From: an uncultured Mycoplasma sp.
GTDB taxonomy: Bacteria > Bacillota_I > Bacilli_A > Mycoplasmatales > Metamycoplasmataceae
Length of the DNA stretch: 64,000 bases
NCBI GenBank assembly: GCA_947039955.1
Contig: CAMRAC010000003.1
Span: 1-64,000, forward strand
Reading direction: 5' to 3'
Shown here: piece after piece, positions 54,351 to 56,583 of the stretch
Layout of the letters: each line of letters starts with the position of its first letter
Numbering within the stretch: the first letter of the stretch is position 1
Notes under the pieces: generated by a model
The model's database searches: none
What the model was told of the DNA's origin: nothing
What the model saw: only the letters and a program-made list of their open reading frames with translations
Position numbers and translations under genes: made by a program

Positions 54351-55247
54351 CTAAGATTCTAAGTTTATATTTTCAAAAAATTCACTAGGTAATTCTGACT
54401 CAATTTCAATAAATTCACCAGTAATATGTACAAATGACAGCTTATATGCGTGTAGTCTTTGGTGAAAGTCATCCAATGACCTTCCGTATACTGAGTCTCC
54501 AACTACAGGAAAGTTAACATGTTTTAGGTGAACTCTAATTTGATGAGTTCTTCCAGTTTCTAATTCACAACGAACTAAAGTGTAGTTTGGGTAAACTTTT
54601 TCAGGATAAACATGAGTAATTGCATTCTTAGAATTTAGTCTAGTTACTGTCATTTTTTGACGATCATGAACATTACGTCCAATTGGCACATTGATATGTA
54701 TTACATCATTCATCATTTTTCCAACAACAAGAGCTTTATAAAATCTATTTACCTTGTGCTCTTTAATTAGTTCAGAAAAATACTTATGAGCAGCATTAGT
54801 TTTAGCAATTAGAATCAAACCACTAGTATGTTTATCAATTCTATGAACAATACCAGGTCTTACACTTCCATTTAAATCCGATAAATCTTTAAAGTGGAAA
54901 AGCAAGGCATTAACTAGGGTTCCATCTTTATTTCCAGGGGCTGGATGAACAACCATTCCACTTTTTTTATTAATAATGATTATGTGATCATCTTCAAAAG
55001 CTACTTCAACAGGAATATCTTGAGCAACCATAACAATTTCGTTTTGAATCTTTTCTTTAATAACAACAGTTTGACCATCATTAATCATAAACTTGACTTT
55101 TCTCACTAAAATTCCATCAACATAAACTCCGTAAATATCAATGATTTCCTTGATTTCATTTCTTGAAAATTCACTATTATCAGCGATAAATTTGTCTATT
55201 CTAACTTTCTCAGTTGATTTTAATATAATCTCTTCTTTTAATAACAT
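54351..55247 (-). CDS. RluA/RluD-family pseudouridine synthase
   Basis: S4-like N-terminus; GIVHRIDKHTSGLILIAKT; GRTHQIRVHLKHVNFPVVGDSVYG. Confidence 0.93.
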   Translation of the reverse strand: MLLKEEIILKSTEKVRIDKFIADNSEFSRNEIKEIIDIYGVYVDGILVRKVKFMINDGQTVVIKEKIQNEIVMVAQDIPVEVAFEDDHIIIINKKSGMVVHPAPGNKDGTLVNALLFHFKDLSDLNGSVRPGIVHRIDKHTSGLILIAKTNAAHKYFSELIKEHKVNRFYKALVVGKMMNDVIHINVPIGRNVHDRQKMTVTRLNSKNAITHVYPEKVYPNYTLVRCELETGRTHQIRVHLKHVNFPVVGDSVYGRSLDDFHQRLHAYKLSFVHITGEFIEIESELPSEFFENINLES

Positions 55248-55345
55248 ATATTTATAATAACATATATTAGAAAATAAAGATATTATGGTGAATTATTATT
55301 TTACATAACTGCTTTTTATTTTAGTTTTAGGTCTATTATAAATGC

Positions 55346-55351
55346 TATAAT
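55346..55351 (+). promoter_or_regulatory. Extended -10 promoter element (TGCTATAAT)
   Basis: TG at 55343-55344, TATAAT at 55346-55351. Confidence 0.65.
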
Positions 55352-55356
55352 TTAAA

Positions 55357-55393
55357 TGTGGTTATGGTGATGTAAAATTCGCTAATAACCACA
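55357..55393 (+). promoter_or_regulatory. Perfect 9-bp inverted repeat: operator or 5'-terminal RNA hairpin
   Basis: TGTGGTTAT (55357-55365) / ATAACCACA (55385-55393), 19-nt loop, directly downstream of the -10. Confidence 0.6.
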
Positions 55394-55424
55394 AAATTTT
55401 TCAAAAAAACCAGGAGGTATTATT

Positions 55425-55586
55425 ATGGAAAACAAAGAAGATTGCAAAAAAACTTGTTCAATTAAAAAAGAAAGTTGTGCAGATAAAAAATCTTGTGAAA
55501 CTAAAAAAGAAAGTTGTGCAACTAAAGAAGAATGCGCAACTAAATGTGGGGAAAATTGTACTTGTTCAGCATGTGCAATGAAATAA
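55425..55586 (+). CDS. 53-aa Cys-rich, metallothionein-like protein
   Basis: MENKEDCKKTCSIKKESCADKKSCETKKESCATKEECATKCGENCTCSACAMK*; 10 Cys; SD AGGAGGT at ~55412-55418; own promoter and terminator. Confidence 0.85.
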   Translation: MENKEDCKKTCSIKKESCADKKSCETKKESCATKEECATKCGENCTCSACAMK

Positions 55587-55625
55587 TAATTTAATATAAA
55601 TTAATTAAAACTACAAATATGACAT

Positions 55626-55653
55626 AAAAACACCATTTAAATATAGTGTTTTT
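55626..55653 (+). terminator. Terminator downstream of the Cys-rich gene
   Basis: AAAAACACCATTTAAATATAGTGTTTTT. Confidence 0.75.
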
Positions 55654-55686
55654 ATTTGCTGAATTTTCTTAATTATTGGAATTAAC

Positions 55687-56583
55687 TTATTTTTTGTAAT
55701 GTAAAATTATGCTCAATATAACTCTTTTTATCCTGCTAGATGTATATCTCTTAGAATTTACTCTATTTATAAATTCATCATAAGTCTTCTCATCAATATG
55801 TTTATAAAATAAATTTTCCATGCCTTCTGATACTAAATTTATTCTTGCAATTTCACTCAAAGGCTTGGTTTTCATGATTTTTTGGAACTTTGAATACTTA
55901 TCTTCTATTCTTTTTGGTATTTTTTTAAAAGTCATTGGCGAATAAAAAGAATAATCTTCTCCGTTGAAAAGCATTTTTCTTATTTTTGATGCAGAAGCCA
56001 TGTTATCTTTGGTTTCGTCAGAATGAAACCCCACTTCTCTTTTAATAGATATTGCTTGAATGTTGTAATTATTATTCACAATAGCCTTTACATACTCTAT
56101 TCCAAGAATATCATTCGGCATTACAAATGAATTACCACATATCTCTTCCAAAGTTAGTGCAGCTGCTTTAGGGAATGAGTTTCCTTTTTTAAGATTAACC
56201 TTTAATTTAGCATTATATTCAGCTAAATTGTCCTTCAAAACATTTGCAACTTGATAAAAAAGATCAACATTATTTGTTTCAGACCCAAAAACAATTTTGC
56301 TAACTCCATAATCATTCAATAACTTAACTGATTCTTGTGCAAAAATATGTGCTGCTTGAACAACGAACTTTTGTGGAATTTCAATAACTTTATTCACACC
56401 ATGTTTTAAAGCTATTTTTTTACGTTTTCTAAAAGAGGCTACAGCCAATTCTCCTCTTTGAACATACTTACCGGACATGACCACAAAAATTTCTTCCCCA
56501 GGAAATAATTTTTTAATATAATTAATTTGATATATGTGTCCATTGTGAAATGGGTTATACTCAGCTATAATACCTATTGACAT
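55687..56583 (-). CDS. TmcAL/YlbM-like nucleotidyltransferase (tRNA(Met) cytidine acetate ligase family)
   Basis: MSIGIIAEYNPFHNGHIYQINYIKKLFPGEEIFVVMSGKYVQRGELAVASFRKRKKIALKHGVNKVIEIP. Confidence 0.9.
   Translation of the reverse strand: MSIGIIAEYNPFHNGHIYQINYIKKLFPGEEIFVVMSGKYVQRGELAVASFRKRKKIALKHGVNKVIEIPQKFVVQAAHIFAQESVKLLNDYGVSKIVFGSETNNVDLFYQVANVLKDNLAEYNAKLKVNLKKGNSFPKAAALTLEEICGNSFVMPNDILGIEYVKAIVNNNYNIQAISIKREVGFHSDETKDNMASASKIRKMLFNGEDYSFYSPMTFKKIPKRIEDKYSKFQKIMKTKPLSEIARINLVSEGMENLFYKHIDEKTYDEFINRVNSKRYTSSRIKRVILSIILHYKK

Follow-up and report, generated by a model that had tools for sequence, protein, structure and literature searches.

The locus between rluD and a nucleotidyltransferase gene in an uncultured Mycoplasma raises two questions: whether a Cys-rich frame of 53 codons is a gene at all, and what its product would do in the cell.

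A short Cys-rich gene opposite two minus-strand genes

The window, which is the whole stretch of 64,000 nucleotides that was analysed, forms the start of contig C3 of a 739 kb genome in 8 contigs. On its plus strand an ORF runs from ATG to TAA at 55425..55586, from which we reproduced exactly the 53-aa peptide described in the sequence-only reading, with 10 Cys at positions 7, 11, 18, 24, 31, 37, 41, 45, 47, and 50. The ORF holds no TGA codons, so its translation is the same under codes 4 and 11. In the N-terminal modules the Cys are spaced 3-6 residues apart, which is looser than in typical metallothioneins. Both flanking genes are antiparallel to the Cys-rich gene, as the sequence-only reading had placed them. 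They are rluD (54351-55247, minus strand), which encodes an RluA-family pseudouridine synthase and is divergent from the Cys-rich gene, and a PRK13671 nucleotidyltransferase gene (55687-56583, minus strand). An rpmF-like gene of 64 aa is a further neighbour. Neither a modification enzyme nor a transporter thus adjoins the gene, and its surroundings yielded no metal regulator or operator.

Chance expectation was determined on a 228 kb sample consisting of the window and ten other stretches of the genome. The window gene was the sole SD-preceded Cys-rich ORF (at least 4 Cys, 12% Cys) in this sample, and five first-order simulations of equal length gave a maximum of 6 Cys in any ATG ORF of at least 15% Cys. 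The window gene exceeds chance expectation.

Two observations were made elsewhere in the assembly. A short frame that lies in the window at about 147-218, close to the start of C3, recurs on the opposite strand within a few hundred bases of the start of contig C4 (L058), and the ends of the two contigs seem to share a repeat. In L056, an identical 48-aa frame occurs at about 8038 and again at about 9099, some 1.06 kb further on, which hints at a tandem duplication.

Promoter, 5' hairpin and terminator

The extended -10, inverted repeat, Shine-Dalgarno sequence and terminator listed in the sequence-only reading were all located in the window. The promoter element is an extended -10, TGC-TATAAT (55343..55351, plus strand; TGCTATAAT, with TATAAT at 55346-55351), without a recognisable -35. 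TGNTATAAT is found likewise in G010, G003, G005, and G008, and TATAAT lies upstream of the gene in all seven close genomes (a number that includes the window genome, G000), in G002 as TTAAAAT. The inverted repeat (55357..55393, plus strand) folds as a 5'-UTR hairpin at -18.7 kcal/mol (RNAfold, z -3.4); as it begins 5 nt past the -10, it should coincide with the 5' end of the mRNA or lie very close to it. The Shine-Dalgarno sequence AGGAGGT follows at 55412..55418 (plus strand). Downstream of the ORF, a terminator-like stem-loop with a T-rich tail lies at 55624..55655 (plus strand), which a simple terminator scan had missed because the stem is A+T-rich. Its folding is modest when the window is taken alone (z -1.9, 11 of 200 shuffles equally good), and the homologues have a hairpin and T-run at the same place. 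This stem-loop possibly also serves the minus-strand nucleotidyltransferase gene. From these signals, the gene would be transcribed alone from the extended -10 promoter. A uORF or attenuator role was rejected, as in the window no co-directional gene follows the ORF ahead of the terminator.

The combination of promoter and stem is rare in this genome. The stem begins 0-7 bases from the -10 in six of the seven close genomes, G011 being the exception, and only 7 of 412 TATAAT sites in the 228 kb are followed by a stem of at least 8 pairs at such a distance. Three of these seven sites, including that of the gene itself, were flagged for an SD-like word and a start codon. Of the two that do not belong to the gene, the first is a stem of terminator type with the SD-like word formed by one of its own arms, and at the second the SD-like word lies far from the stem. 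By reading of the printed sequences, the gene's own site is the only clear TATAAT-stem-SD-start case in the 228 kb.

In G000, G010, G003, and G005 two pairs of the hairpin are changed on both sides, giving all four combinations. The hairpin cells pair in 32 of 32 cases, compared to at most 66% with the partner slid, which for four sequences is a modest statistic. G002 and G008 retain a stem of quite different sequence. The inverted repeat might instead be the operator of a repressor such as a metal sensor, which would concern only the regulatory part of the locus. Its place directly downstream of the -10 would suit an operator, as would the outer arms TGTG...CACA, which are invariant in the four genomes. 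We nevertheless think an operator unlikely. The total length varies out of helical phase (37, 29, 30, and 29 bp in G000, G010, G003, and G005), the stems of G002 and G008 are altogether different, and a search of all 739 kb of the genome meets the pattern a single time, so that there is no regulon. The length variation and the single occurrence therefore favour an RNA hairpin. No Rfam family, metal riboswitches included, matched the 5' UTR at E up to 1. By its likeness to known stabilising 5' hairpins, the structure probably shields the short transcript from degradation.

Homologues at the rluD locus

RluD was found in 11 of the 12 genomes of the genus. Wherever RluD identity is 81% or more, which is the case in seven genomes, the interval beside rluD contains a Cys-rich frame that has an ATG start and an SD. 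The encoded peptides measure 53 aa with 10 Cys (G000), 28 aa with 6 (G010), 42 aa with 8 (G003), 40 aa with 7 (G005), 20 aa with 4 (G002), 41 aa with 7 (G011), and 34 aa with 8 (G008). Residues other than Cys are nearly all hydrophilic; aromatic residues are absent from six of the seven, and G008 has one Phe. No Cys-rich frame was present at rluD in the sister genomes G001, G006, and G009 (RluD about 61% identical), the contig of G007 ends at this position, and an HMM gave no match elsewhere in these four genomes. Those relatives at rluD that carry a name are MAGs of uncultured Mycoplasma. One of them, AC_MYC01, is from the gut of farmed Arctic char (PMC11092275), and for this reason the window genome is probably that of a fish-gut mycoplasma. 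In G002 (L022 / L007), the 20-aa gene is followed on its own strand by a YbjQ-family gene (Pfam 'putative heavy-metal-binding', E 2.9e-7), with a terminator-like stem between the two; the corresponding place in the window has no such gene.

Aligned Cys codons differ by 11 synonymous versus 3 non-synonymous changes and other aligned codons by 9 versus 79, these being counts over pooled pairs from three homologue groups that share branches rather than independent events. All 3 non-synonymous Cys-codon differences concern one position, at which the 20-aa member has no Cys. The contrast indicates translation of the frame and selection that retains Cys in particular; judging from these alignments, the non-Cys residues and the length change rapidly while the Cys stay. 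The same counts bear on whether the locus encodes a small non-coding RNA in which an ORF arose by chance, or whether the ORF is simply spurious. With its own promoter, strong 5' hairpin and terminator the unit does resemble a small-RNA gene, but ATG, SD and open frame occur in all seven genomes and the Cys codons differ almost only synonymously, so that we rejected an RNA gene alone on the codon evidence and give both variants hardly any chance. The self-contained gene proposed in the sequence-only reading is well supported by synteny in seven of seven close relatives, selection on Cys codons and the covarying 5' hairpin.

Part of the length change among the homologues is accounted for by in-frame tandem repeats, as read from the sequences. 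Tandem Repeats Finder reported such a repeat at 55446..55544 (plus strand), as 39 bp in two copies or 18/21 bp in four, which multiplies a Cys module within the ORF; the G008 gene has 3.4 copies of a 21 bp repeat with 98% matches. A C-terminal core K-C-x3-C-x-C-x2-C-x2-K, common to G010, G011, and G002, lies at 55542..55583 (plus strand).

Relatives beyond the genus

More distant relatives were searched for with a profile of the seven peptides and then with a second profile to which the first distant match had been added. Three genomes of another family of Mycoplasmatales (G318, G086, and G037) have a 24-aa, 7-Cys gene adjoining a gene that reads like elongation factor P. G163, from another genus of the same family, has a 31-aa, 9-Cys gene, and a co-directional thioredoxin-like gene follows it directly, with a terminator-like repeat between the two (L097 3178-3729 spans both). 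Each of these distant genes, which represent two other Mycoplasmatales genera, has an SD and, by eye, a terminator-like repeat, and CxC patterns are denser in these carriers than in the window clade. Of 397 genomes drawn evenly from the class, none gave a score except the window genome and G037. The matches L063 and L065 were rejected for want of a Cys-rich frame with start and SD, L003 as a long open frame without Cys clusters, and L070 because it sits within a longer membrane-protein-like frame; L052, L071, and L072 are weak HMM matches. In G318, a degenerate-looking second Cys-rich short frame, MLIKNKCNCFCTCNITSQK, stands ahead of the 24-aa gene (L066 1251-1310 and 1504-1578), which suggests duplication and decay.

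The Cys spacing of the C-terminal core is common also to all four distant genes. The sequence-only reading had made its proposal depend on conserved Cys positions in related species, and this was borne out in part: the C-x3-C-x-C-x2-C core is kept in four of the seven close genomes and in the four distant ones, whereas G003, G005, and G008 differ in spacing and have only Cys richness in common with the rest. Sequences this short and biased are compatible with homology as well as with convergence of the window-clade and distant genes.

Heavy-metal pumps in carriers and sister species

No P1B heavy-metal ATPase was found in any of the 11 carriers; their matches to NCBIfam TIGR01525 are only weak, as other P-type ATPases give. 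TIGR01525 is over cut-off in G006, G007, and G009, congeners in which no peptide was found, and in G001, likewise without a peptide found, the ATPase is split into two pieces that lie on different contigs. The protein of G006 exceeds both the copper-ATPase and the cadmium-family cut-off, and the P1B ATPase of G009 has a neighbour with an HMA domain (Pfam HMA; weak NCBIfam CopZ match). Order-wide, 95 of 334 genomes are over the P1B cut-off, and the probability that 11 carriers all lack the pump, (239/334)^11, would be about 0.025 only if genomes were independent, which they are not. Because of this non-independence, and because some carrier MAGs are incomplete (G010 75%, G002 86%), we count the contrast as a hint. 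Within the genus it sets one clade against another and may therefore be a single event. The opposition between peptide and pump is suggestive, and the peptide may stand in for the P1B export pump of the sister species.

A probable metallothionein-like buffer and its alternatives

We consider it likely that the peptide is a metallothionein-like buffer of Cu(I) and/or Zn(II). The metal-buffering role put forward in the sequence-only reading is the best reading of the locus and gains from the distant Cys core and from the absence of the pump in carriers. According to this model, the peptide would be cytosolic, unfolded when metal-free, and would buffer or detoxify soft metals by taking up their ions, with Cu(I) and/or Zn(II) the most likely ones, into metal-thiolate clusters. 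The C-terminal C-x3-C-x-C-x2-C box would be its core, and upstream Cys modules would be copied or lost by in-frame tandem duplication, setting a capacity of 4 to 10 Cys between species. The 5' hairpin would guard the short mRNA against decay, and the peptide might substitute for the P1B export pump.

The main rival is a thiol or redox buffer, or a cysteine store, in which the Cys would switch between thiol and disulfide forms and take the place of low-molecular-weight thiols. High Cys with a remainder of nearly only hydrophilic residues fits such a pool, and so does the G163 gene upstream of its thioredoxin-like neighbour, despite the terminator-like repeat between them. A simple thiol pool has no need for clustered CxC/CxxC spacing that recurs across genera, however, and no thioredoxin gene adjoins the gene in the window clade, so that we regard this role as improbable. 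We see a still slimmer chance that the peptide does not buffer at all and has a regulatory or other role: delivering metal to one partner as a chaperone, regulating in the manner of a zinc knuckle, or serving as the precursor of a modified peptide. The shortest member (G002) could bind just one ion, and the YbjQ-family gene behind it would agree with such a role. A fixed partner is hard to reconcile with the fast turnover of length and of almost all residues other than Cys, and a modification enzyme or transporter adjoining the gene is lacking.

More tentatively, and with rather more doubt than confidence, we propose that Mollicutes have their own class of minimal metallothioneins, down to 20 residues and 4 Cys, which would replace heavy-metal export pumps during genome reduction and change in capacity as in-frame Cys repeats are gained or lost, the stabilising 5' hairpin being conserved throughout. 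A full-text literature search, with matches judged mostly by title and abstract, returned no report of a mollicute metallothionein. If the metal-buffer reading is correct, wall-less bacteria retain, in genomes of about 0.6-0.9 Mb, a metal-buffer gene of 60-160 bases, and such genes escape coverage by profile libraries. The natural series of 4-10 Cys at one locus would then be a set for measuring the minimum Cys of a working metallothionein, and buffer peptide versus export pump would be a testable trade-off.

Comparison with known metal-binding peptides

The seven peptides agree with a broad description of metallothioneins: a length of 20-53 aa, a Cys share of 17-24%, CxC in every peptide, a single aromatic residue among them, and Cys conserved above other residues in the codon counts. 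No Pfam or NCBIfam family, metallothioneins included, matched the window peptide at E up to 10. The G163, G318, G003, and G008 peptides gave no match to these libraries either, and G011 only a chance match to CSRNP_N. PDB sequence and profile searches gave no match, as expected for short biased sequences, phage records held no similar DNA, and PADLOC gave no match.

The likeness to SmtA and BmtA drawn in the sequence-only reading holds insofar as these too are small bacterial Cys-rich proteins, and the mycoplasma peptide would be expected to bind Zn, Cd or Cu as they do. Membership in their family is not supported. The SmtA/BmtA profile (Pfam Metallothio_Pro) does not match, no regulator gene adjoins, and the window peptide has no His (one of 11 peptides has one), which speaks against SmtA-type His ligands. 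The window sequence also gives no support for the zinc-finger-like fold reported for SmtA (PMC7558416). CopZ, with its HMA domain, is likewise a small cytosolic copper handler of bacteria, a role predicted here for the mycoplasma peptide, but CopZ is folded with a single site and the mycoplasma peptide lacks an HMA domain. By description it can be likened to MymT of Mycobacterium tuberculosis, in a different phylum, which was also a small Cys-rich ORF at first unannotated and protects against Cu(I) (PMC7558416).

The Cu-thionein of Neurospora crassa and Agaricus, fungal metallothionein Family 8 with 7 Cys in 26 residues (PMC4755600), is similarly short, CxC-containing and hydrophilic, and the terminal Cys spacing is common to both. 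The window peptide has only the last four Cys of the pattern [CXC]-X5-[CXC]-X3-[CXC]-X2-C, and G318, G086, G037, and G163 match its last five, C-x-C-x3-C-x-C-x2-C. A BLAST alignment of G163 with the Neurospora peptide covers only 16 residues at E 6e-5, a value for that single comparison. Unlike the fungal peptides, those of the mycoplasmas are bacterial, and the window form has sparser Cys with Lys/Glu/Thr linkers; on these sequences, convergence appears as likely as homology. Membership in any named metallothionein family is not supported, and the mycoplasma peptide probably works like a metallothionein. Cu-thionein forms in Cryptococcus and Tremella are amplified in tandem (PMC4755600), and the mycoplasma peptides would resemble them in gaining capacity as a Cys module is copied in tandem.
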